Below, piece by piece: positions 2,470 through 61,181 of a stretch of DNA of 64,000 nucleotides. The notes under the pieces are model-generated. The model did not search any database and was not told where the DNA came from. It was given only the letters and a program-made list of their open reading frames with translations. Position numbers and translations under genes: made by a program. Position 1 is the stretch's first letter. Every line of letters starts with the position of its first letter. Origin of the DNA: Chelativorans xinjiangensis (GTDB lineage Bacteria; Pseudomonadota; Alphaproteobacteria; Rhizobiales; Rhizobiaceae); assembly GCF_009812055.1 (NCBI RefSeq), contig NZ_WQNH01000002.1, positions 124,001 to 188,000 on the forward strand, read 5' to 3'.

Positions 2470-3540
2470 AACGTCGCTGGGGCGCACGTTGAGCGATATG
2501 TCGCGCACGCCGGGTGCGAGCTGGCTGCGGCGGATGCGCGCGCGCACGTGATCCTCGCTCCCCTCGACCGCCAGTTCGAGAAGCACCACCACGCCGAGAA
2601 AGCGCCTGGAGACGATCCGCGCCGGCACGCCCTGCCCTTCCTCGCCCACCTCGAACCCGGAAAGCCGGACGGCCACCGTCACCGGCGTCCCATCGGCCAG
2701 ATCCGGTGCGGCAAACCGGCCGAGCGGCGTATCGGCCGTGCCGTTCGCCATTCGCGCCTCGAATAGGTTGAGCTCGGAGAAGAAGCCGGCGACGAAAAGA
2801 TCGGCCGGCCGCAGGTAGAGTTCCTCGGCCGTTCCCACCTGCACCAGCCGCCCGGCCCGCAGGAGCGCGATGCGGTCGCCGAGCCGCATCGCCTCCTCCG
2901 CATCGTGGGTCACCACGATTGCCGTCGCCCGGCTCTGGTGCAGGATGGCGAGCGTCTCGGCCCGCACCGTGTCCTTGAGCCTGGAATCGAGGCCGGAGAA
3001 CGGCTCGTCCATCAGAAGCACCGCGGGGCGCGGGGCAAGCGCCCGGGCCAGCGCCACGCGCTGCTGCTCGCCGCCCGAAAGCACATGCGGGTAGGCCCCG
3101 GCATAGCCCTCCAGCCCCACCCTCCTGAGCGCGATCATCGCCTCGTTCTTCGCCTCCTCGCGCGACAGCGCCGTGAGGCCGAAGCGCACGTTGTCGAGAA
3201 TGGTGAGATGCGGAAAGAGCGCGAAATCCTGGAAGACGAGGCCGATGGAGCGCTGCTCGGGCGGGAGGAAGACGTTGGGCCCGGCAATCTCCCGGTCGTT
3301 GAGGAGCACGCGGCCGGCGCTCTGGGTCTCGATGCCGGCGGCAATCCGCAGAAGCGTCGTCTTGCCGGAGCCCGACGGCCCCAGGAGACACAAGACCTCG
3401 CCCGGCTCGGCCGTCAGCGTCACATCATCGAGTGTGACCTGGTCGGGCGCGAAGCGGTGGCTGACCTGTTCGAACGCCAGGCGGGCGGCGAAGGTCACCC
3501 CGGCGGTCACCCGCGCCGGCTTTTCGTCCGTCTCGCTCAT
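2452..3540 (-). CDS. ABC transporter ATP-binding protein (FbpC/PotA type)
   Basis: This cytoplasmic ATPase of 362 residues has Walker A GPSGSGKTT (54-62), signature LSGGEQQR (about 154-161), Walker B VLLMDEP (about 174-180) and the VVTHDAEEA switch histidine near 210. A C-terminal TOBE-like segment (about 250-350) would contact solute in the iron(III)/polyamine/thiosulfate importer class. No permease or binding protein is adjacent, so the substrate cannot be named; iron(III) is the closest resemblance. The last residues (LVVRS) come from the 122-bp repeat, so the native C-terminus may have been altered. It sits between scpB and tatA. Confidence 0.85.
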   Translation of the reverse strand: MSETDEKPARVTAGVTFAARLAFEQVSHRFAPDQVTLDDVTLTAEPGEVLCLLGPSGSGKTTLLRIAAGIETQSAGRVLLNDREIAGPNVFLPPEQRSIGLVFQDFALFPHLTILDNVRFGLTALSREEAKNEAMIALRRVGLEGYAGAYPHVLSGGEQQRVALARALAPRPAVLLMDEPFSGLDSRLKDTVRAETLAILHQSRATAIVVTHDAEEAMRLGDRIALLRAGRLVQVGTAEELYLRPADLFVAGFFSELNLFEARMANGTADTPLGRFAAPDLADGTPVTVAVRLSGFEVGEEGQGVPARIVSRRFLGVVVLLELAVEGSEDHVRARIRRSQLAPGVRDISLNVRPSDVLVVRS

Positions 3541-4342: not shown

Positions 4343-4464
4343 CTAGTGATCTGACCCAAACGGATGGTGCCCATCCGTTTGGAAAAGTCAGCCCACAAGC
4401 TATTAATCCGGTGGGGCGATTTGTCCTGACAGATGGGGACCATCTGTCAGGATCGCACCACTAG
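4343..4464. repeat. 122-bp CTAG-bounded repeat, copy 2
   Basis: This is the second copy of the element at 2348-2469, in the same orientation, with 7 differences in 122. It lies between scpA and scpB and supplies the final 20 or so codons and TAA stop of scpA (4403-4464). Both ends are CTAG and both internal hairpins are kept. Confidence 0.85.
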
Positions 4465-29858: not shown

Positions 29859-30413
29859 ATGTCGAACAGACCAACCAATGTATTTGTCCTTTGCGCAGGA
29901 CGCTGCGGGTCAACCACATTCATAAAAGCATGTCGCCACATGACGAACTTCACGACTGCCCATGAAGGCAGAGCGCGCGCCTTCGGTCCCTATAAGTTCA
30001 CCTACCCAGAACACCATATAGAGGCGGACAATCGCTTATCTTGGATGCTGGGTCGACTAGAAACGGCTTATGGAGACCGTGCTTTTTATGTCCACCTTAC
30101 CCGCGATCTGGATGCTGTAGCCGAAAGCCATGCAAAACGCATGACCCCTGGTAGCAATAGCATCGCTCAAGCGTATAGACAGTCGATATTATCCCGTCAC
30201 GAAGAAGAGGGGCCAAATCTAGCGATAGCGCGCGACATGCTTATAACCATTACGGAGAACATTCGCTATTTTCTCTCGAATAAAACGCACGTCATGCACA
30301 TTAAACTTGAGTGTGCCGAGGAAGACTTTAGGGAATTTTGGCGTTGGGTTGGCGCAACAGGAGATATGGAAGCGGCTTTACTGGAGTGGCGGATAAGGCA
30401 CAACGCTTCTTGA
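29859..30413 (+). CDS. Sulfotransferase family protein (phage accessory gene)
   Basis: The 184-residue product opens with VFVLCAGRCGSTTFIKAC, the PAPS 5'-phosphosulfate-binding loop of the sulfotransferase fold. A YVHLTRDLDAVAESHAKR segment matches the 3'-phosphate-binding Arg/Ser motif. The C-terminal FREFWRWVGATGDMEAALLEW resembles the family's terminal helix. It would transfer sulfate from PAPS to a glycan or other acceptor; the acceptor is unknown. It is on the opposite strand to the late genes and converges on the tail-spike gene, the position of an accessory lysogenic gene. Local GC is lower than the host genes. Confidence 0.8.
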   Translation: MSNRPTNVFVLCAGRCGSTTFIKACRHMTNFTTAHEGRARAFGPYKFTYPEHHIEADNRLSWMLGRLETAYGDRAFYVHLTRDLDAVAESHAKRMTPGSNSIAQAYRQSILSRHEEEGPNLAIARDMLITITENIRYFLSNKTHVMHIKLECAEEDFREFWRWVGATGDMEAALLEWRIRHNAS

Positions 30414-33850: not shown

Positions 33851-33876
33851 AAAAAGGCCGCCCATCTGGACGGCCT
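33851..33876 (-). terminator. Rho-independent terminator
   Basis: The stem AGGCCG / CGGCCT is followed on the minus strand by TTTTTG. It would stop transcription coming from the internal virion genes before the appendage genes. Confidence 0.75.
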
Positions 33877-33899
33877 CGCAAGATGTGACTATATGTAAC

Positions 33900-33934
33900 G
33901 AACCCGCCGAGCGTTGTGGCGCTGCGACGGGTTC
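33900..33934 (+). promoter_or_regulatory. Conserved leader hairpin, copy 1
   Basis: GAACCCGCCGAGCG and CGCTGCGACGGGTTC pair as a 7-base outer and 4-base inner stem. The 35 bases match 42341-42375 at 33 positions. The hairpin ends 28 bases before ATG 33963, with the ribosome site AGGAGGT in between. Confidence 0.7.
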
Positions 33935-33962
33935 TAACCAGCCAACCTGATAGGAGGTCGAC

Positions 33963-34256
33963 ATGGCTACCCGATATCTAATTCCCGTTAAGTTCCTCGG
34001 CAATGCGGCAATTCTGTCCGCCGCCGTTTTCCTTGCCTCGTGCGCCGCGCACCCGGATCGAATCAAGCCCGTGTCCTATGCCGACGCCACATGCACCGAT
34101 GCAGACCGACAGCGCCTTGCCGATCTAATCCAGGTGCAGAAGGCAACCGCGAGAAACGATGCCGTTGGCGTGTTCCTTATCGGTCTTCCGATGGGGCGCA
34201 TCGCAGGCGGCAACCATGCCCCGGAAATTGCACGCCTCAAGGGCGCATGCTCTTGA
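33963..34256 (+). CDS. Small lipoprotein, phage accessory
   Basis: The 97-residue product has a type II signal peptide with lipobox LASC (about residues 24-27): a basic N-terminus, hydrophobic core AAILSAAVFLASCAA, and cysteine as the mature first residue. The mature part is short, with two more cysteines that could pair. AGGAGG precedes ATG 33963. Whether it goes to inner or outer membrane is not clear; exclusion or spanin-like roles are possible. It is paired with a membrane protein whose start overlaps its 3' end. Confidence 0.72.
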   Translation: MATRYLIPVKFLGNAAILSAAVFLASCAAHPDRIKPVSYADATCTDADRQRLADLIQVQKATARNDAVGVFLIGLPMGRIAGGNHAPEIARLKGACS

Positions 34257-34504
34257 CGCGGTGGTTGAAGTTCATGGGCGCGGCGGTGGGATGGTCTCTC
34301 ATCTGCCGCGCCATTCTCGAACTCGCTCCCGTTCATCCAATCGCCGTGTTTTTCGTCTGGGTCGTCGGCTTTCTCTGGCTCACCGGATGGATAGCCGCAG
34401 GCCCGAAAGACGCTGACGATCTCGTCAAATACTGCCTCGCCACGCTGGCGCTCATAGCCCTTGGCGGCAGCGTCCTTTTCCTTCTGATCGCCCCATTCAC
34501 CTGA
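34247..34504 (+). CDS. Small multi-span membrane protein, phage accessory
   Basis: The 85-residue product has about three hydrophobic segments (MGAAVGWSLICRAILELAPV, IAVFFVWVVGFLWLTGWIAA, YCLATLALIALGGSVLFLLI). Its ATG lies 10 bases inside the lipoprotein gene, so the two are coupled. It converges with the virion gene at 34497 and overlaps its 3' end by 8 bases. No family recognised. Confidence 0.65.
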   Translation: MLLTRWLKFMGAAVGWSLICRAILELAPVHPIAVFFVWVVGFLWLTGWIAAGPKDADDLVKYCLATLALIALGGSVLFLLIAPFT

Positions 34505-37085
34505 ATAGGCCGGGGAACGCCTCTCGCTCGACCGAGCTGCGCTGCCCGTATTCCTTGCGGCGCCGAGTCTCCTGGCGCTTGAGATAACCTGGGCTCACCG
34601 CGTCACGCATCGAATTGAGGAACAGATAATCCAGCGCCGGGCGGGTATAGAACAGATTCACGAACGGCGTGTTCTGAAGTCCGATAGACAGAGCGTCAGC
34701 CGCCGACGCATCTCCGTCCCTCGCTTTCATAAGGAATGTCATGCTGTCGAGTACGGAGCCGATGGATGGGCCGATTACCGTTTCCGCCAATCCCCCGCCA
34801 AACCGATTTGTTTGCGCGAACAGGAAATCGCCATAGATACCGAAGGCCCCACCCTGGAGGGCTGCGGCCTGCCACGTCTTGACATCGGTCGGATCGCGCG
34901 GAGGCCAGTATCCCCGGATAATATCCTTCATGGTCATAGACATGTAGCCCGCTATGGTCATGCCGGCGAGGAGGGCGCCGATATGCGCGGTCTTGTCCAG
35001 AATGGTGGCATCCTTGCGGTGGCCGAATAGCGCCCTGCCGACGATGCGGTTGGCGAAAGTGAAGGGAAACCCCTTGAACTGCCCGACGAAGCGGATGGCC
35101 TCACCCGCCGCAGTGCCGGGCCTGAGGCCCTGCGTCATAATCCTGCGCGTTGAGGCATCGACCTCCACCACGCCATAGCTCGTCTCGTCGGCAAAGAAGC
35201 GCAGAACCGACAATTCCAGATCGCGCCGGCCATCCTCAATAATCTGCGCCCGCTTGGCTTCAAATGCCTCATCGCTCTTGCTGGCCTTGCGTGCCGCCGC
35301 GATCCGGTCGGCAACCAGCGGCTCAATCGCAGCATCATCCAGTTCGCGGATACGATCCGGCGTTACGTATTCCTTTCCCTCAACCTCGCGGAACCGCGAC
35401 TTGCGGATGGCGTCCCATTTTTTCGCATTGATCCCATGCAGGCCCAAGACATGCTTATAGTTTGCCGGAAGGCTGTCGAAGTCCGTTTTCGCCCGCATGC
35501 CCATCTCCGCAGAGATGACGCGCCCCGCCGTGGCCCTCTGCACGTCGGTCCACCAAGTCAGGCCATTCCATTTGAAGAACGACTCCTGAAGACGGGATAG
35601 CCTGCCTACGGGGCCATCGGTGGCGGCGGCCGGGGCAACGATATGGCCGATCAGACCGTCAAACCCCTCACCGATCATGTAGGAGATTTCCGCGAACTCG
35701 CCTTTCGGACGGCCCTTGCGCAGCCCATCCAGTTGTGCCGTGAGGCCACGGAAGAAGCTGGTGCCACGAAACATGGAGGCTACAGCCGGGGTGATCGTAT
35801 CTGAAAGGGCCGTGATCGTCGCTCCGCCAAGCTTTGCCATGGACTGAACGGCACGGATATCGGAGCCAATCTTCGCGGCGGTGACGTTGACAGGACGAGA
35901 GATCATGCCTGTCGAGACATCAAGCGCTTGTTTGAGCTTTCCAGCCTCAGCATCAAGCCCCCGCATGCGCTTCTGCTTTTCAGCTGGGCTCAACTTCGGA
36001 TCATCCTTGATCCGGCGTTTCATTCCATCGACCAGCGAACCGAACATGACTTCCGGGTTTGGCCCAAGCGCTTCCATATTGGCTGCAACCCGCGCGGCCC
36101 TCCTGAGATGCGAGATCATGCCCGACACGGTGTTGCCGTATCCGAACTCCTCACGATAGGCCAAGGCTGCATCGCCGTCCTTGAAATGCAGGACGCGGGA
36201 CTTGCCGAGTGATCGTGCTAGATTGGCCGGGTTCACCCTCTGGCCTTTCTCCTTTGGTGTCGCCCTGTTCGGAAATCCGGTGACGAGCGTATCGTAGACA
36301 TCGCCAAGAAGCTCCTTAACCTGGGCTTCATCGACGGCATCGGGGAATGTGCGGTCCATGTCGAGGCGCGGCAGGATAGCATCTGTCCATGCTTCCTTGC
36401 CGGCAGCGATCATCCTCACATCGTCATGGATCTGCGCCCCTGCCCAGCCGTCGAGCTTGCCTATCGAGGCCCCAAGCTTGTTCAGATCGGTGCGGCTCAA
36501 CTCGGCATAGGAGGCGAACAGCTTGGCGACGTACTGCGCATCCTTGTTCTTGGTGATGCCCGGCGTACCACCCTCACGCAACTCTGACATCTCGCGCATG
36601 ATATCCGCGTCCATCTTCGGATCGCGCAGCGTGTTGACCATGTACGGGCGGTTCTTCTGCAATTCAGCGAAGAGACCACCCAGATAGCGTGCCTCATAGG
36701 CGAGGTTCAAGGCGGCTACGGAATTGCGCCCACCCTCAACGCCGCGCTGTGTCCCCTCCAGAACGGCAAGGAGGGCCCTCTGTGGCGACAGCCCCGCCCT
36801 CATAAGCCCGTCGATGGCCTGGTCCATTCTGTCGCGCACAAGCACATTCATGGCGGCATGCCGGCGCTGCATCGCGGCGGCAATCTTGGTGCGCTCCGCT
36901 TCCCTCTCTGCAAAGGTGCGCAGCTTGTCGGCCATGCCGTCGAGATTGCCTTCGGCCTGAAGCTTCTGCTTATAGTCAAAAACGCGCTGGAACGCCTCGT
37001 TGACTTCTTCCTTGCTAAGCCTGTCGCCCGCTGCCTTGCTGGCGGCGTCGAAACAGCCGGGACCGATGTTGGGGCGGATTCTCAT
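34497..37085 (-). CDS. Large internal virion protein (gp16-position)
   Basis: The 862-residue product is mainly helical with amphipathic segments and small hydrophobic stretches (for example IGALLAGMTIAGYMSMTMKD near 720). It has no recognisable enzyme motif. It is the last of four consecutive large or medium genes after tail tubular B, the place of the T7 ejection-protein gene 16. It overlaps the upstream gene by 4 bases. Predicted role: injected into the cell envelope to form the DNA-ejection conduit; this rests on size and synteny. Confidence 0.7.
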   Translation of the reverse strand: MRIRPNIGPGCFDAASKAAGDRLSKEEVNEAFQRVFDYKQKLQAEGNLDGMADKLRTFAEREAERTKIAAAMQRRHAAMNVLVRDRMDQAIDGLMRAGLSPQRALLAVLEGTQRGVEGGRNSVAALNLAYEARYLGGLFAELQKNRPYMVNTLRDPKMDADIMREMSELREGGTPGITKNKDAQYVAKLFASYAELSRTDLNKLGASIGKLDGWAGAQIHDDVRMIAAGKEAWTDAILPRLDMDRTFPDAVDEAQVKELLGDVYDTLVTGFPNRATPKEKGQRVNPANLARSLGKSRVLHFKDGDAALAYREEFGYGNTVSGMISHLRRAARVAANMEALGPNPEVMFGSLVDGMKRRIKDDPKLSPAEKQKRMRGLDAEAGKLKQALDVSTGMISRPVNVTAAKIGSDIRAVQSMAKLGGATITALSDTITPAVASMFRGTSFFRGLTAQLDGLRKGRPKGEFAEISYMIGEGFDGLIGHIVAPAAATDGPVGRLSRLQESFFKWNGLTWWTDVQRATAGRVISAEMGMRAKTDFDSLPANYKHVLGLHGINAKKWDAIRKSRFREVEGKEYVTPDRIRELDDAAIEPLVADRIAAARKASKSDEAFEAKRAQIIEDGRRDLELSVLRFFADETSYGVVEVDASTRRIMTQGLRPGTAAGEAIRFVGQFKGFPFTFANRIVGRALFGHRKDATILDKTAHIGALLAGMTIAGYMSMTMKDIIRGYWPPRDPTDVKTWQAAALQGGAFGIYGDFLFAQTNRFGGGLAETVIGPSIGSVLDSMTFLMKARDGDASAADALSIGLQNTPFVNLFYTRPALDYLFLNSMRDAVSPGYLKRQETRRRKEYGQRSSVEREAFPGLFR

Positions 37086-38833
37086 ATCAGGCAGCTCACA
37101 GCAGCTTTGAGGGCTTTGCCCCAGGCATCGCCGTTTTCATATGTCGTCGTAGCATCTGCGAGGGCGGCCTCGTCATCCTCTGTCAGCCTGCCCTCTGTGC
37201 GCAATTGCTCGATCTCCGGTTCCTCAAAATAGGCGCCTGTCTCTGGATCGACGCGGTATTGTGCGGCCATCGCCTTGAAGTCGTCAGGTCTGGCTATGGC
37301 CTGTTCGGCTTGTGCGCGGCCCTCAGGAAGCGTTTCTGGTCTTGCCGGCGTCGTGTCCACCGCTGCGCGCGAACGAAGGCTACGGACCTTCTCAAGGCCA
37401 GATGCAAGGGCATCAACTTCACGGCGAACCCTGGCGAAGTCCTCTCGGGCAGCGGCGAGTGCAGTTCGCGCCCGCTTGGCCTGTTTCTCGGGGCCGATAC
37501 GGGTCTCGCGGTCAACCCTCGCAACGGCGTCCGCGTCAAGGCTTTCGACAATCAGGTCTCGCTCTGCCTCAAGCACCTCACGGCGACGGGCTGCCGGCCC
37601 TGCCGCCAGTTCGTCCTCTATGGCGCGCAGGCGTTCTGCGGAGGCCTCATCGACAAGTGCGACAGCATCGGACTCGCGCCGCGCCGTCAGCCCCTCCTCA
37701 ATCTCGGCTACCTTCTCCTGCGCCGCCGTGAACTTCTCTTCCGCCGCTCGATAGCGTTGCGCCAGTTCAGGCGACGTGGCAAGAACATCCTCCCGTACGG
37801 CGGCCTCGAACTCACGCACCGTTGCGGGGCGATTGTCAATGACGCGGCCCACGGCAGTCGAACCGAACAGGTCTTCACGATCAAGAGGCGCGAAGAGATC
37901 GGGTGATCTAGCCGGGTTGTTCTCCCGCATGATGCGCGCCAGCGGGTCGGTCGCATTCGGTGAGAGCCTGACCTCACCATCATTGATCAGCCCGCCGACC
38001 GCCTCGTTCAACGCAATGCGGGCTTCCTGCGTGTTGCGCAGTGTGGATAGCCGGGCCTCTATCTCCCTTTGCTGCGCCTCGAATCCACGCCGGCCGAGAA
38101 GACCAAAACCGGTGCCAAAGGCTCCACCAATCAAGGCGGCTGTGGCGATCTCCGTGACAAGGCGCTGCCACGAAACATCATCGCCAAAGGATTCGCGCGC
38201 CTCTCTGGTGGCAATGCCAAAGGCGGCAGTGTTCGCGGCGGCGTCAATGGCTGCCGTCGCGGCGGAACCTCGCACGAAACCAAAACGGGCTATGTTCGCG
38301 GCCCTGACGGATTGCCCGGCGATGGGCACGTAGTTGATGGGATCGACCGCCTGCCCGGCGAGATTGCCGAGAAACGACGTGATGGGCCTCTTCGACGCGA
38401 AATACTCCCGCACCCTTTGTGTGTCATACCAAGTCGCCAAGGCAGCGGCCCGGTCCTCCGTCATCGCCTCATCCCATGGGACTTCCTTACGGAAATAGGG
38501 GGACTGCTGGTAGGCATCCTGCGAAAGAGGGGTCTGGTCCTGGTTGATCTGGCCCTGAATGGCTCTCCGGCCAACCTCATAGGCTTGCAGAAGCGGATTG
38601 ACGAATGGCAGGATGATGTTCTGCCTGCGCCGCTGATCATCGTTAACGACGCCTTCCGGTATCGCTGTATGCCTCAGGGCCGTGCCAAGACCGAAGCTTT
38701 CGACTATACCCCCCTTGGCCTGGTCCCAGAACGTCGCGCCAAGGTTCATTGGCTGATCCAGAGCGGCATCGAAAAGATCGATGCTGGTAGCCCCGCGATA
38801 AGCCGGCCCCTGGCGGAAGCTGTATAAGCTCAT
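37082..38833 (-). CDS. Internal virion/ejection protein, coiled-coil rich
   Basis: The 583-residue product starts MSLYSFRQGPAYRGATSID. A Gly/Ala-rich middle (about 155-240) with possible membrane-active helices (IATAALIGGAFGTGFGLLG) is followed by a long Glu/Arg/Ala coiled coil (about 345-510). It lies between two other giant virion proteins with 4-base overlaps on both sides. Assignment as an ejectosome component is from position and composition only. Confidence 0.65.
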   Translation of the reverse strand: MSLYSFRQGPAYRGATSIDLFDAALDQPMNLGATFWDQAKGGIVESFGLGTALRHTAIPEGVVNDDQRRRQNIILPFVNPLLQAYEVGRRAIQGQINQDQTPLSQDAYQQSPYFRKEVPWDEAMTEDRAAALATWYDTQRVREYFASKRPITSFLGNLAGQAVDPINYVPIAGQSVRAANIARFGFVRGSAATAAIDAAANTAAFGIATREARESFGDDVSWQRLVTEIATAALIGGAFGTGFGLLGRRGFEAQQREIEARLSTLRNTQEARIALNEAVGGLINDGEVRLSPNATDPLARIMRENNPARSPDLFAPLDREDLFGSTAVGRVIDNRPATVREFEAAVREDVLATSPELAQRYRAAEEKFTAAQEKVAEIEEGLTARRESDAVALVDEASAERLRAIEDELAAGPAARRREVLEAERDLIVESLDADAVARVDRETRIGPEKQAKRARTALAAAREDFARVRREVDALASGLEKVRSLRSRAAVDTTPARPETLPEGRAQAEQAIARPDDFKAMAAQYRVDPETGAYFEEPEIEQLRTEGRLTEDDEAALADATTTYENGDAWGKALKAAVSCLI

Positions 38834-41415
38834 TGCGCGCCGCCCATGGTGCCGAATGACCTAGAACGCTCCTCAAGGAATTGACGCTCCCGTTCTTCCT
38901 CGTTCAGAAGCTCACGTACAGGGGTAGCATCAATTGCTTCCTGCGTAGTGAAAATGATCGGCTCCCCATTCTGGTCGGAAACCGCAAGCCCGGTGAAAGG
39001 GTCGATGAACGCAAAGCCGTCGCCTGAGTTGCGGAAGTATCCCTCCGCCATCACGTTGTCGATGTAGTTCTGCGTTGCGGCGTCAAGAACAGCACGGGTG
39101 CTATCTGCGGTCGGGGCGTCGGAAGGAACGGTAAGTGCTGTGGCGAGCGCTCCTCGGACATCAGGCAAGAGCCCCTCCAGCCCGTTGATGATGGCCTGTC
39201 CGTCATCGCCTGCCGGCACCAATATCTGTGCATTGACGGCAGAATTGCCGGTGAACACATTGACATCGCCGTAAAGGTCTTTCGCCACGGCGGCGACAGC
39301 ACTCGATAGGGATTCGCCTTTGCGGATACGCACCTGCACGGCATTGTTGATGAGCTTCTGGTCCCTCTGGGCGCGGACGAAGTTCTCCGTCGATCCATCC
39401 GACAGTCCATAGTAGACATCGCCAATCTGACCCACATCCATAAGCTCTGATTGAATAGTCTCATCGATAGCGGCCGGCTTCTCCGGGGATTGGCCGGGCA
39501 GTTTTGCCGGGTCGATCATGGCGGCGCGGAAGAGTCGCCTTGCTGCTCCTTCATCGCCCCGAGCGGCCGCCTCAATGGCACCTTCCGTGATATCCGGCAA
39601 TCCAGCCTCAACCAACTGATCAAACAGCGCGCGGCGCTGCATGGGATCGGACGTGCCGAGAATGGTTTGCGTCACCGCAGCAATGCGCTGGTCTTCCGGT
39701 AATTCCTCATCTTCAAATTTGCCGATAGCCGCGTCGGCAAGGTTCGCCGGCAGAAGGCGCGGCCTCTCGATGCCGAGTTGGCGTTGTGCCGCAGCGGTTT
39801 CCGCAAGGGCGTTCTGATAACTCCCCGGCGCGGACATATCGCCACTCCATGCGCGCTCGACCTCAGGGAAGGTTTGGCGCGTATAGGCGGCTGGATCGGC
39901 GTTGCGGGCCTTCAGGGTGGCGCTGGCGGCACCGGAAAGCACCTCGAAGCGCTTTTGCTCAAGAGCGGCATTGTCGCCGGACGAAACCGGCGTTGCCGCA
40001 GCAACCATCTCCTGTATCTGCGCAGGCGACATGGTGCGCATTTCGAAGGCTTGTTCGGATGTCTCGATGGAAGTCTGGAATGCGTTGTACTTTTGTGGCC
40101 CGTCCTGCGGCCCATAGGCATCAACGAATTGCTCAATGGACGGAAGGGACCCATCATAACGGCCCGTGTTCTGGATCGCCGCAGGGGCGTTATTGGCGGC
40201 AACCTCGATGAATCCCTGAAGCTCGACGTTCTTGCGTGTACGCGCGGCGTCGGCCTCGCGCTGGAGTTTGGCCTGATGTTCCGGCGAAAGGCGCTGATAC
40301 CAGTCCGGATTTACTTCCTGACCAGCCGCACGGGCTGCAAAATTCAGACGGCCAGAATAATTATGTCCGCCACGCGGGTTTTTCGATGTCCACCCTGCGG
40401 GGCGCTCATACCCGATAAAGGCGGCGGTGGCCTCATCAACGGTCTTCGCATCTTTCAGCGCTCTGAATGCCGCCGTTTCCTGACTCTGAAGCTCAACATC
40501 GACAAAGGCAAGCTGTGTCTCGAAGTCCTGCCAATCGAGATTGTTCGATGCCGCATAGCGCTTGAGGCGATTAAGCCGCTCGCCACGCCATTGAGCGATG
40601 CCGAATGCGGTCCCGCCATCACCCACTGCGCCCGAGGGGCGCAAGTTGCTTTCCGCAATCAAATTGCCGACGATACCCGCCGCCTGTACCTTGGAATAGC
40701 CGCGCGATTCATAAAACGCCATGGCGGCAGCGGCACGGTCACTTACTTCGGCGGGGAGTGGTTTAGCAACTACGGAAGGGTCGCGCTCGATGGCCAACTG
40801 GCCACGACTGAAATCAGCATCCTCAATATACTGCTGCCTGCGCTGGTCTGCCTGTTCCGGCGTCAGGAGTCCAGACGAAAGGCCTGCGGCAATCGCCCCC
40901 TCGATATCACCTCGCGCCTTAGCCTTTACGTCATCGCTCGTGTCGGGATCGACATAGAGACGGCGATTGGCTTCCAATGCCTCATCGAACGCGACGGTTT
41001 CAGCCTGGCGTTTGATGGCCCTGCCACGGTCGAAGATCGTATCGTTGGTGCGTGCCGCATCGGCTTGAGCGCTGGCCTCCCATCGCGCGCGCATGTTCCT
41101 GTCACGGATGAGGTGAGCGCCGTTCTTGACAACCTCGCCTGTCCTCTCCGGGGCGCGCTTGTCGAACGTGGCATAGTCAGGATCGTCCTCGAACGCGTTC
41201 TGTGTGGCGAGGAGCTGTTCGGTCTTGTATGCTTCAGCCCGTGCGATATCGACAGCGTTCTGGCTCTGCTCGATCTCTGCGCCGAGTGCGGCGATATCCT
41301 GGCCAGCCGAGGCAATTCCGCGCCCGATGCCAGACGTATCGACCGAGGCTATTGCCCGACCGCTGCGAAGCGATACGGGGCCGCTTAAATCTGATTTGGT
41401 CGGCAACCTAGCCAT
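38830..41415 (-). CDS. Internal virion protein with phage tail lysozyme domain
   Basis: The 861-residue product carries, at about residues 225-365, AAMAFYESRGYSKVQAAGIV then GNLIAESNLRPSG and GGTAFGIAQWRGERL. This is the phage tail lysozyme fold with Glu in AES as the likely catalytic acid. The flanks are long helical regions. In T7 a lytic transglycosylase in gp16 opens peptidoglycan during ejection; here the activity sits in the neighbouring protein. It would cut a local hole in the wall for genome entry. Confidence 0.82.
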   Translation of the reverse strand: MARLPTKSDLSGPVSLRSGRAIASVDTSGIGRGIASAGQDIAALGAEIEQSQNAVDIARAEAYKTEQLLATQNAFEDDPDYATFDKRAPERTGEVVKNGAHLIRDRNMRARWEASAQADAARTNDTIFDRGRAIKRQAETVAFDEALEANRRLYVDPDTSDDVKAKARGDIEGAIAAGLSSGLLTPEQADQRRQQYIEDADFSRGQLAIERDPSVVAKPLPAEVSDRAAAAMAFYESRGYSKVQAAGIVGNLIAESNLRPSGAVGDGGTAFGIAQWRGERLNRLKRYAASNNLDWQDFETQLAFVDVELQSQETAAFRALKDAKTVDEATAAFIGYERPAGWTSKNPRGGHNYSGRLNFAARAAGQEVNPDWYQRLSPEHQAKLQREADAARTRKNVELQGFIEVAANNAPAAIQNTGRYDGSLPSIEQFVDAYGPQDGPQKYNAFQTSIETSEQAFEMRTMSPAQIQEMVAAATPVSSGDNAALEQKRFEVLSGAASATLKARNADPAAYTRQTFPEVERAWSGDMSAPGSYQNALAETAAAQRQLGIERPRLLPANLADAAIGKFEDEELPEDQRIAAVTQTILGTSDPMQRRALFDQLVEAGLPDITEGAIEAAARGDEGAARRLFRAAMIDPAKLPGQSPEKPAAIDETIQSELMDVGQIGDVYYGLSDGSTENFVRAQRDQKLINNAVQVRIRKGESLSSAVAAVAKDLYGDVNVFTGNSAVNAQILVPAGDDGQAIINGLEGLLPDVRGALATALTVPSDAPTADSTRAVLDAATQNYIDNVMAEGYFRNSGDGFAFIDPFTGLAVSDQNGEPIIFTTQEAIDATPVRELLNEEERERQFLEERSRSFGTMGGAQ

Positions 41416-41421
41416 TCATCG

Positions 41422-41964
41422 TCACCCGAAGGCCCGGCCGAAGCCGCGCGCAGCCTGCCCAAAGCCGCCAATGGTAGAGCCGAGAAGCGATGCCCGGCCG
41501 CTGGCGCGCCTGCCCTTTGCGGAATCCAAGAGGCCACGGGCGCGACTCTCACCACCAAACCCGACCGTGCGGGCGTTGAAATCCGCCGCGCCCGCCGTAT
41601 CCGTCATCAGCTTGACGATGGTCGGCGCATCTGTGCCAGCTCCGGCGCCGGAAGCGGCGGCCAAAGCCTGCTGGCGAGACTGGATAAGCTGGCCCTCACG
41701 GCGCTTCTGCTGCGCTTCGCGCTGGGCAGCAGCGCGCTCCTCGGCGGCCTTCTGCTCAAGCTGCTGCGCCTCGAACTTGGCGGACTGGTTTGCGGCGGAG
41801 CCGGCCGCGACGGTACCCACGGCGCCAACGCCCGTCCCGATAGCCGATAGTGTCTGACCGAGGGTGATGCCCGATGACGCTGCTGCGCCCGCGCCAGCTG
41901 CCGCGCCACCACCGCCAAGGGCAGTAATCAGGGGCCCGATTAGCGGGAGACCTGCCATCGCCAC
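41422..41964 (-). CDS. Internal virion protein, gp14-like
   Basis: The 180-residue product has a Gly/Ala-rich hydrophobic N-terminus (LITALGGGGAAAGAGAAASS, VGAVGTVAAGSAA) followed by a Gln/Glu/Arg coiled coil (FEAQQLEQKAAEERAAAQRE) and a basic Gly/Arg/Phe-rich end. This composition and the position between the gp13-like gene and the large virion proteins match T7 gp14, which enters the outer membrane during ejection. It overlaps the gp13-like gene by 25 bases. Confidence 0.72.
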   Translation of the reverse strand: MAMAGLPLIGPLITALGGGGAAAGAGAAASSGITLGQTLSAIGTGVGAVGTVAAGSAANQSAKFEAQQLEQKAAEERAAAQREAQQKRREGQLIQSRQQALAAASGAGAGTDAPTIVKLMTDTAGAADFNARTVGFGGESRARGLLDSAKGRRASGRASLLGSTIGGFGQAARGFGRAFG

Positions 41965-42317
41965 ACCTCCGTACCGTCCTCGACGGCATAGAATTCAAAT
42001 CCAAGCATTTTGCAGAGCTTCTCAGACGTTGAAAATTGCATATCACGGGGCGTGAAGACTTCACTTGCCCCAAGCTGAACGGCATGGCGAAGGCACTTCC
42101 GAGCCTCGCGACGGATCACAAATCCATGACCCGGGCGATAGTTTTCGACGTGGAAGAAGATCCACGTCCTACCCCCACCCCACGCCAAGCCCCAACAGGC
42201 GATTAACTCTTCATCCTCGATTGCCGCTTTGGCATAGACCGGTAGATCAATGTCAAGGCCGGATGCCCGCACGATCTCACGCGGGTTGACGGTGACGATT
42301 AGGGTGTTTGATTTCAT
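41940..42317 (-). CDS. GNAT-fold virion protein, gp13-like
   Basis: The 125-residue product ends LCKMLGFEFYAVEDGTEVWR, the strand-helix-strand close of a GNAT fold, similar to the end of T7 gp13, and follows tail tubular B as gene 13 does in T7. The central GHGFVIRREARKCLRHAVQL could correspond to the acetyl-CoA loop helix, but the canonical Q/RxxGxG/A is not clear, so catalysis is doubtful. I chose ATG 42317 (MKSNTLIVTV). Confidence 0.68.
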   Translation of the reverse strand: MKSNTLIVTVNPREIVRASGLDIDLPVYAKAAIEDEELIACWGLAWGGGRTWIFFHVENYRPGHGFVIRREARKCLRHAVQLGASEVFTPRDMQFSTSEKLCKMLGFEFYAVEDGTEVWRWQVSR

Positions 42318-42340
42318 CAACCGCCCGTAGTACAAACAGC

Positions 42341-42375
42341 GAACCCGCCGAGCGTTGGAGCGCTGCGACGGGTTC
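42341..42375 (+). promoter_or_regulatory. Conserved leader hairpin, copy 2
   Basis: This copy differs from 33900-33934 at 2 of 35 positions, both in the loop, so the stem is unchanged. It ends 27 bases before GTG 42403, with AAAGGA between. It lies in the gap between divergent genes, as copy 1 does. Confidence 0.7.
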
Positions 42376-42402
42376 TGACCGAAACGACGAAAGGACCGTC
42401 GA

Positions 42403-42996
42403 GTGGCTAAATCCCGTTTATGTTCGATTCCAGACTGTGGCAAGCCCGTCAGGGCTAGAGGCTATTGCTCCGCCCACTATGACCGCTGTCGAAAGTATGG
42501 TGATCCTCTTGCCGGCGGCGCGCCACGCGTGCCTAAAGGTGAGGCACTTCGCTGGCTCTACGCGGTGGCTATTCCTTATAAAGGTAACGACTGTCTGATT
42601 TGGCCCTTTGCCAAAGGCGGGAACGGATATGGCCAAGTTTGGATGGACGGTCGATATAGGGTCGCCAGTCGTATTGTCTGCGAAGAGGCTAACGGTTCGC
42701 CGCCAACCCCAAAGCATGAAGCCGCCCATAACTGTGGCTTCGGTGATCGTGGCTGCGTAAATCCAGAGCACCTACAATGGAAAACGCACGCCGGTAACCA
42801 GATGGACCGCGTCGAACACGGCACCCACCACCGTGGGGAGCGTCAGTGGATGGCTAAACTCACCATTCCCGACGTACGCCAAATCAGAAAACTCAGAGGC
42901 GAGATTTCGCAGTCGAAGATAGCCATAATGTTCGGGGTAAGCCAGGCCACCGTCGCCGACATCCACCTACGCAGGAAGTGGGCATGGCTACCCTAA
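42403..42996 (+). CDS. HNH endonuclease, free-standing homing type
   Basis: The 197-residue product has an N-terminal zinc module (CSIPDCGKPVRARGYCSAHY, then KYGDP) and an HNH core KHEAAHNCGFGDRGCVNPEH. A C-terminal helix-turn-helix, ISQSKIAIMFGVSQATVADI, likely gives DNA specificity. The start is GTG 42403 with AAAGGA seven bases upstream. It is inserted on the opposite strand between tail tubular B and the gp13-like gene and overlaps the former's stop by 4 bases, typical of intronless homing endonucleases. It has the same domain order as the gene at 59387-59983. Confidence 0.88.
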   Translation: MAKSRLCSIPDCGKPVRARGYCSAHYDRCRKYGDPLAGGAPRVPKGEALRWLYAVAIPYKGNDCLIWPFAKGGNGYGQVWMDGRYRVASRIVCEEANGSPPTPKHEAAHNCGFGDRGCVNPEHLQWKTHAGNQMDRVEHGTHHRGERQWMAKLTIPDVRQIRKLRGEISQSKIAIMFGVSQATVADIHLRRKWAWLP

Positions 42997-58779: not shown

Positions 58780-59394
58780 TCAAGCCCTTGCGAAGTGGCG
58801 AGACAGTGCGTTCCCCAATTCTCTCAGGGCGCCGATCATGTACGCGTGTTCCTCCTCTCTCAGCACACAGTAATCGAGCGCGGCCCATAGGTTGTGCGAC
58901 CGTTCCGCGTTCTGCATCTGCTGGATTGCCTCGGATGCATCCTTGTGAGCAGTGATGACAGACGTGCGCCATTCGGCTGTTGCGTCGTCGTCGCCCTCAT
59001 TGGCCGATAGGCGCGGCTCGTAATAAGCGCCCGGCGCTCCAATAGCCTTGAGATAGTCGTTATGCAGCTCGCGGTATTGCAGGAGAGCGAAATACTGCCG
59101 TGTCGAGATGCTTTGAGAGGGTTGCGACGGCTCCATACCCCTGCCGCGCTTCTCCCATTCCTGATAGAGCTTCTTCCACGCCATGTAGGCCATGTGAAGC
59201 CGGCCAAGATATGTCGCTGCATGCTGATCCTTGGCGCGTTCAACGCTGATTTTATGCATTCTGGCCCTGGCTTCCAATGCGAGTTTCGATGGCGGGTCTT
59301 TGGCGCGTGAGATTTGCCCGGATTCCGTGCGATATACGTCTTCCTTCTTGGGCCTGCCCCGGCGCTTCTGGCTCTTGGTTTTCGCCTTACCCAT
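58780..59394 (-). CDS. Phage protein with AT-hook-like basic N-terminus
   Basis: The 204-residue product starts MGKAKTKSQKRRGRPKKEDV, in which RRGRPKK resembles an AT-hook minor-groove binder. The rest is helical (YLGRLHMAYMAWKKLYQEWE; LWAALDYCVLREEEHAYMIG). It could bind DNA, but no family is recognised. It overlaps the HNH gene by 8 bases and is the last gene of the right-hand minus-strand operon. Confidence 0.7.
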   Translation of the reverse strand: MGKAKTKSQKRRGRPKKEDVYRTESGQISRAKDPPSKLALEARARMHKISVERAKDQHAATYLGRLHMAYMAWKKLYQEWEKRGRGMEPSQPSQSISTRQYFALLQYRELHNDYLKAIGAPGAYYEPRLSANEGDDDATAEWRTSVITAHKDASEAIQQMQNAERSHNLWAALDYCVLREEEHAYMIGALRELGNALSRHFARA

Positions 59395-59983
59395 GAAGAG
59401 CCCACCGCCTTCCGGATACAATGCCGCATATCGTAGAGTATGAAACTCCGTACTCATCAGCGAGTTTCTTCTGTTGTCCGCGCCGACCCGTATAGCGCCT
59501 TCGAATCGTCGCCACCTGTTCGTCTGTAAGTTTTGCCAATGGGTGCCTTTCGCACTTGAGCCGCGTGCCGTGTGCTTCTTTATCGGCCTCGTTCTCGGCC
59601 TTAGTAGCCCATCGCACATGATTGGGCGCGACACATCCCATCCTTCCGCGACCGCAGTTGTGCGCCGCTTCATGTTGTGTGGGGGGTAGCCCATACAGAC
59701 TCTCACATATGTATCGAGAGACTTGCATGTTCCTACCGTTAACCCTGATTTTCGCGTATCCTTTATTATCATGATGAAATGGCCATACTAGGCACTCCTC
59801 TCCCTGGTAGGACAGGTGTTCCTCGATCCATTTCAGCGTGTCGCCACGATCTGGGTAATCTATCTCTGTAACGAGCGGATCGCCGTGCTTAAGCCATCGC
59901 TGGTAGTGCTTCGAGCACCACTCTCTTTTGCAAGCCGTCCTCGCGCACCCATCAATCCGACAAGGAAAGTTTTTCGCCTTCAT
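59387..59983 (-). CDS. HNH endonuclease, homing type
   Basis: The 198-residue product has an N-terminal zinc module (CRIDGCARTACKREWCSKHY, then LKHGDP), an HNH core EAAHNCGRGRMGCVAPNHV and a C-terminal helix-turn-helix (KKLADEYGVSYSTICGIVSG). It has the same domain order as the protein at 42403-42996 and is clearly related. It starts in an ATGA overlap with the gene upstream, with GGAGACGGA before ATG. Confidence 0.88.
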   Translation of the reverse strand: MKAKNFPCRIDGCARTACKREWCSKHYQRWLKHGDPLVTEIDYPDRGDTLKWIEEHLSYQGEECLVWPFHHDNKGYAKIRVNGRNMQVSRYICESLYGLPPTQHEAAHNCGRGRMGCVAPNHVRWATKAENEADKEAHGTRLKCERHPLAKLTDEQVATIRRRYTGRRGQQKKLADEYGVSYSTICGIVSGRRWALHG

Positions 59984-60273: not shown

Positions 60274-60476
60274 TCCGTCTCCCGCTTCACGATCTTGCCG
60301 CAGCGCACGCAAACGTCATGCACGTATGTTTTGGGCTTCATGATCTCGAAAAACTCCAGGGTAGCGCGTTCAAAAGACTTGAAGCGCGATAGGTCTGGCG
60401 GCCCGAGATCATAGCGGGCCTCAAATCTGCACCCGCCAATCCACTTCCCCAATCTCTCGCACCTGTCGGTCATCAT
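60270..60476 (-). CDS. Small cysteine-containing phage protein
   Basis: A 68-residue product with a C-terminal CVRCGK pair and an earlier cysteine (RLGKWIGGCRFEARYDLGPP), possibly a small zinc-binding protein. It ends KRETE and is joined to both neighbours by 4-base overlaps bearing the same GGAGACGGA ribosome site. No family recognised. Confidence 0.68.
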   Translation of the reverse strand: MMTDRCERLGKWIGGCRFEARYDLGPPDLSRFKSFERATLEFFEIMKPKTYVHDVCVRCGKIVKRETE

Positions 60477-61075
60477 TCCGTCTCCTGCGCCATGCGCTCG
60501 ATGTGCTTGCGGATGCCGTAAGGCTCCCGTTCCGTGCCCGTATAGCCAAGGACACGCTCTGCCGCTTTCCGTGCGATTTGCGCCTCATGTAGCGTTTTGA
60601 ACGATCCGAGATAAACGTGGCGAGGGCCATTCCAGATGCGCGCCACCCAACGGCCGTCTCCTGGCTTGGAATTGTATTGCGGTTTCCAATTGACGCCATG
60701 AACGCCAGATGTGTTGTTGATGCGTCTACTACTGTTGCGCTGGTTTCCGCTCTTCGTGACTTTGCGGAGATTGGAGAGGCGATTGTCGTCGCGATTGCCG
60801 TTGATGTGGTCAATCTCGTATTGAGGATATTCGGCCCACTCCCCATGGATCATAAGCCAAATCACCCGGTGGGCAGAGTGGTAGGTGCCATCGATCAAGA
60901 CCTTGATATAGCCATCTTGGTTGGGGCAACCGGCTGGCTTGCCTATGCGCTTAAGGTGGTCGCTGTAGCGCGGTGGCGAGAACTCCTCGCGCGGACGTTC
61001 CTTGAACGTCAGGACTCCAGTCTCTGGATCGTAATTGAAATATTCACGCGCACGTGCTTGTGTCGGCTTAGCCAT
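60473..61075 (-). CDS. HNH plus AP2-type homing endonuclease
   Basis: The 200-residue product starts MAKPTQARAREYFNYDPETG, with the LxxxFxYDPETGxLTFK strand pair, then an HNH core YEIDHINGNRDDNRLSNLR and a C-terminal AP2 DNA-binding domain (GVHGVNWKPQYNSKPGDGRW; VYLGSFKTLHEAQIARKAAE). The AP2 domain sets specificity in related phage endonucleases. AGGGACG precedes ATG 61075. It appears integrated into an overlapping operon. Confidence 0.9.
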   Translation of the reverse strand: MAKPTQARAREYFNYDPETGVLTFKERPREEFSPPRYSDHLKRIGKPAGCPNQDGYIKVLIDGTYHSAHRVIWLMIHGEWAEYPQYEIDHINGNRDDNRLSNLRKVTKSGNQRNSSRRINNTSGVHGVNWKPQYNSKPGDGRWVARIWNGPRHVYLGSFKTLHEAQIARKAAERVLGYTGTEREPYGIRKHIERMAQETE

Positions 61076-61181
61076 TTCGGGCGTCCCTATCGCTCGTCTG
61101 GTCAGGGCTGGTTTCGGTGCTCGCAACACCAAATCAGCCCGTCTTTTATAGACTATTTCACCAATTTCGGCAAACACTTAG

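Follow-up and report, generated by a model that had tools for sequence, protein, structure and literature searches.

In a prophage of Chelativorans xinjiangensis, two genes with different products are preceded by nearly the same hairpin. What does this repeat do, and which strand carries its function? Most likely, each of the twin hairpins forms one end of a small antisense RNA that spans the start of a phage gene and turns it down, as SymR does to the SymE toxin in E. coli. The best reading is that of a swappable module, similar to SymR, FinP and RepX, which controls homing endonucleases together with other mobile or orphan genes.

The window is the whole stretch of DNA that was analyzed, 64,000 nucleotides long. 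The tail genes of its prophage are on the minus strand, and the two genes in question are transcribed against them. The first (33963..34256, plus strand) is a lipoprotein-like gene of 97 amino acids without a match in Pfam, PHROG or NCBIfam. The second (42403..42996, plus strand) encodes an HNH endonuclease of the Pfam family HNH_3. The preliminary description reported a 35-base hairpin before each gene, at 33900-33934 and 42341-42375, with 33 of the 35 bases the same and the 2 differences both in the loop, and gaps of 28 and 27 bases to the start codons. Positions, sequences and spacing were all confirmed, with copy 1 leading to ATG 33963 and copy 2 to GTG 42403.

The hairpin sequence pattern has two matches in the window, against none expected from 100 shuffles, and these are also the only two in the 5.69-Mb genome at up to three mismatches. 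The likeness between the copies extends past the hairpin. On the 5' side a sigma-70-like promoter ends 4 bases upstream (copy 1: 33867..33895, plus strand, TGGACG, 17 nt, TATATG, seen in the identical locus L009; copy 2: 42308..42336, plus strand, TTGATT, 17 nt, TACAAA, seen in the identical locus L004). On the 3' side are TAACC or TGACC, then a second small hairpin that encloses the ribosome site, then TGGCT.

A third copy, recognized by its structure, is invisible to the sequence pattern. A covariance model detected it on the minus strand (61067-61152), with a stem (GGGCTG paired with CAGCCC) unrelated in sequence to those of copies 1 and 2. The gene that it precedes is another HNH_3 endonuclease gene (60473..61075, minus strand), for which the start at 61075 is proposed because the mechanical reading frame start, 61177, lies upstream of the module. 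The sense promoter of this copy was placed by eye at 61145..61173 (minus strand; TTGCCG, 17 nt, TATAAA). The model finds three copies only in the host genome. A search for the motif in the rest of the prophage and in related phages, as had been suggested, thus gave a third copy at an HNH gene start and a motif that recurs at gene starts in the phages.

Three further features of the window can be recorded here. A plus-strand sulfotransferase-like gene, identified by eye at 29859-30413, lies amid the minus-strand tail genes and has no module. An HNH paralogue of the gene at 42403 (43% identical; 59387-59983) is, by eye, co-directional with its neighbours and also has none. The bacterial flank of the prophage contains a 122-base direct repeat, 94% identical, at 2348-2469 and 4343-4464.

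Relatives of the module were collected by pattern scans, five over viral contigs and a sixth over genome and viral contigs. By eye, chance accounts for L045, for 9 of 11 new loci in one viral scan and for 4 of 12 in another. In the other relatives the hairpin is directly 5' of a gene start, mostly that of an HNH endonuclease beginning ATGGCT. A covariance model built from 23 sequences (R1) recovered 86 copies at E ≤ 1e-6, in 72 sources, and detected the module in 20 of 397 genomes of the window's order. A second model (R2), whose training sequences came from phage contigs, two Henriciella records and genomes belonging to the order and family of the window, detected it in 31 genomes out of 385 at class level and in 41 out of 299 at phylum level, with E set at 1e-4 per genome; the E-values are rough, and the order, class and phylum samples overlap, each including the host's own genome. 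The module-bearing genomes appear to belong to Pseudomonadota. Inspection of 36 loci from the class and phylum searches left 27 that were kept and 9 that looked doubtful (L124, L126, L129, L130, L132-L136). The doubtful loci, some of them perhaps misdisplayed by being cut at the wrong place, are excluded from the strand, antisense-promoter and N-terminus tallies and from the later model scan.

Three loci (L032, L034 and L042) have the module without the usual start-codon context. A related promoter and hairpin precedes genes that look TnpB-like by eye (L034, L037, L041 and L032), with another start context, and may be a separate element. In L042 a promoter and hairpin of the same kind (3155-3266) stops a few bases before a tRNA gene.

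The preliminary description attributed the repeat to a shared regulator, an RNA-binding protein or the end of a mobile cassette. Part of that view holds, since a shared control element with kept pairing and fixed spacing is indeed found at accessory genes; a sense leader bound by a common regulator is not upheld. Stems vary in sequence from copy to copy, some of them completely, and they do so even within one phage, L072, which has four copies with four different stems; this makes a shared sequence-specific binder unlikely. A sense leader read by a common protein was rejected because the stems change while the pairing stays, and because the mismatches, described below, favour the other strand. 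Also unsupported is the idea that loops are always private within a phage, as two of the three copies in L006 have an identical hairpin.

The different stems of L072 also bear on a DNA-level explanation. Palindromes that adjoin the -10 box, and that occur in two or more copies in several phages, could be operators just 3' of the promoter, to which one repressor, from the phage or the host, would bind. Such an operator is extremely unlikely, since the stems in L072 differ and yet keep their pairing and asymmetric bulges, and since an excess of A.C over G.U mismatches would be unexpected for a DNA site.

This excess is found when the two strands are compared. An A.C mismatch on one strand is a G.U pair on the opposite strand, so a surplus of A.C on the gene strand suggests that selection keeps the antisense-strand RNA paired. 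When 18 pairs are counted over the two hairpins, with the C.A of the window copies among them, the gene strand has 109 A.C and 16 G.U mismatches. Both window hairpins, copies 1 and 2, have this C.A mismatch, which is G.U on the complement. For the first hairpin (P1), 98 distinct copies counted without the C.A pair give 79 A.C and 11 G.U, a tally in which three rows are part matches read on the other strand that count the wrong way. The 31 leaders unseen by the model give 31 A.C and 4 G.U in P1. Covariance models prefer G.U over A.C, so any detection bias should oppose the observed excess. For the second hairpin (P3) the bias is not clear (14 against 6, P 0.058; 3 against 4 in held-out leaders), and binomial P values overstate the case because the sequences are related. 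On these counts, the conserved RNA appears to be the strand opposite the gene.

The complementary strand also folds more stably, at -24.5 and -24.6 kcal/mol for hairpins 1 and 2, against -21.4 kcal/mol for the gene strand of both. Folded as longer RNAs, the antisense strands of copies 1, 2 and 3 form two stem-loops with z-scores of -6.8, -4.6 and -5.8, against -3.3, -2.4 and -3.6 for the sense leaders; SymR, for comparison, has -5.3. All three copies thus have two stem-loops on the antisense strand, with a strand bias that is clear in the first hairpin only. The second hairpin contains the ribosome site, and its sequence varies while its pairing is kept.

Covariation can be seen in the alignment of 86 copies, where 16 of 17 pairs have changes on both sides. 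Double changes fill 265 cells, against 19-45 when the partner position is slid, and the covariation score is 0.519 against at most 0.077, counts that are favoured by an alignment fitted to the structure. RNAalifold, run on a plain MAFFT alignment of 47 leaders, supports four inner-stem pairs with double changes and does not recover the second hairpin.

A structured leader on the sense strand, in which a 5' stabilizing hairpin and a ribosome-site hairpin tune translation and no antisense RNA is made, would fit some of these observations. The sense promoter places the hairpin at about +1, the ribosome-site hairpin varies in sequence with its pairing intact, and P3 has no clear strand bias. Such a leader is nevertheless improbable. 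It does not account for A.C being far above G.U on the sense strand of P1, for the better antisense z-scores in all three window copies, or for the AT-rich motif in codons 5-7 and the matches to symR and finP that are described below. Three other ideas about the leader were tried and rejected: CsrA-like binding to GGA in the second hairpin loop (several loops have no GGA wholly inside), an RNA thermometer (the ribosome site is often in an open loop), and pairing of a loop with the ribosome site within the leader (by eye, there is no consistent complementarity).

Upstream of 49 non-redundant copies are TTG near -33, TAnAAA at -10 to -5 and AGC beside the hairpin, with no conservation at -40 to -34. 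The promoter of window copy 1 fits this TTG-17-TAnAAA pattern. This sigma-70-like pattern implies that the mRNA starts at about the hairpin, which is followed by T(A/G)ACC, the small ribosome-site hairpin and the start codon. The hairpin adjoins the sense -10 box, and the complement of this box gives a U-rich tail, mostly GCT(A/T)TTTnTA, with a modest U-tract; as a terminator tract, the tail GCTnTTTnTA is weak.

For the opposite direction, a -10 element, [AT]TA, is found in codons 5-7 (CDS 16-19) of unrelated genes. Among 63 non-redundant genes it is at CDS 17 in 25 and at CDS 16 in 12, and at any other position in at most 4. Held-out genes have the same motif at CDS 16 or 17 in 21 of 30, and no other position between 8 and 57 has more than 3; in window copies 1 and 3 the element is weak. 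A candidate -35 element, TTG at CDS 41-39 (CAA at CDS 39), occurs in 23 of the 63 non-redundant genes and in all three window copies. As it occurs in only 2 of the 30 held-out genes, it may be family-specific and is at most tentative as a general feature. In 62 of 113 cases the stretch from the hairpin to codon 2 measures 70-71 nt. Eight loci (L089, L090, L095, L099, L103, L116, L138 and L139) encode otherwise different proteins with the common start MADSDNT or similar, a kind of N-terminus that the antisense promoter may explain.

The candidate antisense promoters of the window can be placed accordingly: at 33975..34003 (minus strand) in the lipoprotein gene, with TTGCCG, 17 and TAGATA, a weak -10; at 42417..42443 (minus strand) in the first HNH gene, with TTGCCA, 15 and CATAAA; and at 61035..61063 (plus strand) in the second, with TTGAAA, 17 and TTGTGT, again a weak -10. 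At the three window copies, simple consensus scans detected promoters on neither strand and only one terminator-like site, which is formed by another stem. The predicted antisense RNAs are 33893..33968 (minus strand, about 76 nt, two stem-loops), 42334..42408 (minus strand, about 75 nt) and 61070..61147 (plus strand, about 78 nt). The ends of the first are modelled on SymR, and it would span both the ribosome site of the lipoprotein gene and its start codon. Fold, covariation and strand bias mark the hairpins of copies 1 (33900..33934) and 2 (42341..42375), both read on the minus strand, as the predicted antisense terminator stem-loops (SLII). In copy 3 the predicted terminator stem-loop, from the covariance model, is at 61105..61140 on the plus strand.

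The comparison with E. coli symE/symR was prompted by a SymE-like gene downstream of one module. R2 was built without symR. Over 6 kb of E. coli K-12 it nevertheless ranks the symE/symR leader first, with 21.7 bits (E 7.2e-6), the next match having 8.3 bits. In the F plasmid, of which 3.5 kb were scanned, the best match is the leader of traJ, the site of finP, with 14 bits (E 0.0015), followed by 10.4 bits. This traJ match stops at the traJ start, finP itself being unannotated in that record, and it is weak.

According to PMC1891008, SymR is a 77-nt RNA that is transcribed from a promoter inside symE and represses translation, and two silent changes in CATTCT within symE abolish it. CATTCT is at CDS 13-18 of symE, so the symR -10 is placed like the module's antisense -10. 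The annotated SymR start is the complement of CDS position 6, which matches the predicted start of the module RNA; a start at that position would explain the nearly invariant GCT second codon. Module and SymR (RF01809) thus agree in a length of about 77 nt, a start at codon 2, two stem-loops over the ribosome site and start codon, and an antisense promoter within the target gene with its -10 at the same codons. They differ in that the targets of the module are mostly homing endonucleases and orphan genes.

Other RNAs have the same design. RepX of RSF1010 and FinP each place two stem-loops over a ribosome site and start codon, and their targets are termed invariable in PMC8136791. In the same paper the linker of RepX (R1162-RSF1010 RNA, RF00043) is GUUA, the complement of the module's UAAC; its target is a replication gene, in contrast to those of the module, and it is FinO-bound in Salmonella. 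FinP likewise blocks the start region of its target, traJ, but is FinO-dependent and has the linker GACA. The host genome, the one genome searched, has no match to the FinO/ProQ-domain chaperone family PF04352. The Rfam model RF00043 is in the mRNA sense and ends in the start codon, AAUGGCU, so Rfam may list this antisense family in inverted orientation. Searches of open-access PMC listed no paper whose title or opening abstract lines connect homing endonucleases or HNH genes with RNAs like SymR or FinP.

No Rfam family reaches its gathering score at the window copies or at the phage loci searched, and the symR model (gathering score 61 bits) has no match at any window copy. Below that score, the symR model matches two SymE-linked loci on the antisense strand, with 47.6 bits at L137 and 36.1 at L142. 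These two lie opposite symE, as SymR does, while the window copies lie opposite a lipoprotein-like gene and two HNH genes. The R1162 RNA model gives 39.7 and 29.6 bits at the two SymE-linked loci (L137 below threshold), and the FinP model 31.9 bits (threshold 45) at one of them. The module is therefore not filed as Rfam symR, because it fails the score test, even though it would be SymR-like in its working.

The two-hairpin architecture, the wobble strand bias of P1, the sense promoter, the antisense -10 and the likeness to symR and finP are results of computation. The production of an antisense RNA, the position of its two ends and the repression of its target are inferred. The sense promoter would begin the target mRNA at the hairpin, and a second promoter, within about the first 14 codons of the target, would fire backwards. 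The resulting RNA of about 75-78 nt would start at the complement of codon 2 (AGCCAU...), form two stem-loops linked by GUUA or GUCA, and stop at the hairpin, where the complement of the sense -10 box supplies the U-rich tail. It would be complementary to the mRNA at the ribosome site and start codon, and the leader of this mRNA would fold into mirror-image hairpins. Pairing of the two RNAs, presumably begun by contacts between loops, would block translation and expose the duplex to decay. The outcome would be a low leak of endonuclease or other accessory product from the resident prophage. RNA structure also keeps the translation of homing endonucleases low in phage T4. There the mRNA itself hides its own ribosome site, whereas the module is proposed to act through a separate antisense RNA.

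The targets can be surveyed across the relatives. Pfam was searched with 20 locus proteins and the window proteins, and NCBIfam with 10 proteins, including four new loci. Above the cut-off are HNH_3, alone or with NUMOD4 or AP2; NUMOD3 in L040 and in L067, which also has a below-cut-off GIY-YIG match; phage integrase in L092 (below cut-off in L088); and the Pfam SymE_toxin family in L137 and L142. Below it are Peptidase_S24 (L065), HIPIP (L075) and an AcrIIA3-like match (L093). Of the ten proteins in the second Pfam set, eight have no family. In L052 and L074 the product is a short protein that, by eye, begins with a hydrophobic, signal-like stretch.

When HNH loci were picked by protein alone (the best 80 of 484 relatives), 51 had the module, counting L194, whose start is further upstream. 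Both flanking genes are opposite in 23 of these 51, against 1 of the 29 loci without it. For the upstream neighbour alone, 31 of the 51 loci with the module have it in opposite orientation, against 7 of 28 without it where a neighbour was called (P 0.004). These counts come from a rough reading-frame caller and related loci, and opposite orientation is a tendency rather than a rule.

The cultured Rhizobium phage RHph_N3_2 has the module at a solitary HNH gene (QIG72944.1), and four other annotated HNH genes viewed there are all without it. The model, scanned over 38.8 of the phage's 43.1 kb, gives one further site only, before another gene. In RHph_X2_25 a second antisense-oriented HNH gene has no module. 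Two Rhizobium phage loci (L080:17733-17813 and L081:22393-22475) have the module upstream of a small minus-strand gene beside structural genes, annotated as DUF1515 in RHph_N3_2 and as hypothetical in RHph_Y25.

L148, with 63% identity over 67 residues, is the only relative of the window lipoprotein that was found beyond the same prophage. This relative has no module and a different N-terminus, so the window gene probably acquired its module. The hairpin might instead be simply the end of a mobile cassette, a recognition structure for transposition without a regulatory role. Several unrelated endonuclease and transposase-like genes do have it in common. That role is very improbable all the same, since conservation extends from the -35 box as far as about codon 7, with the ribosome site and start codon in register, and since the module also precedes SymE, integrase and orphan genes. 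A mobile-cassette origin of the module would be compatible with its proposed use as a source of antisense RNA.

As a source of antisense RNA, the window repeat would belong to a widespread architecture, known from SymR, RepX and FinP and found here on phage accessory genes. It can be proposed tentatively that SymR, RepX, FinP and the phage modules form one superfamily of promoter-plus-antisense-RNA cassettes passed between genes, with each copy kept private by its own loops, so that newly gained mobile genes arrive silenced. In this somewhat doubtful proposal the cassette would, throughout Pseudomonadota, have joined genes for homing endonucleases, integrases, SymE toxins and lipoproteins, as well as many short orphan genes.

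Plasmids and toxin-antitoxin systems offer the textbook cases of cis-antisense RNAs over a start codon, each with one target. Here the same architecture precedes a wide range of unrelated genes, among them many that are selfish or orphan. If it is expressed, the module would account for the common Met-Ala start and AT-rich codons 5-7 of unrelated proteins. It would also provide an RNA marker for finding type I toxin-like genes without likeness between proteins. The endonuclease targets could themselves be toxic, and an expressed module would be a general answer to how homing endonucleases persist harmlessly in prophages.
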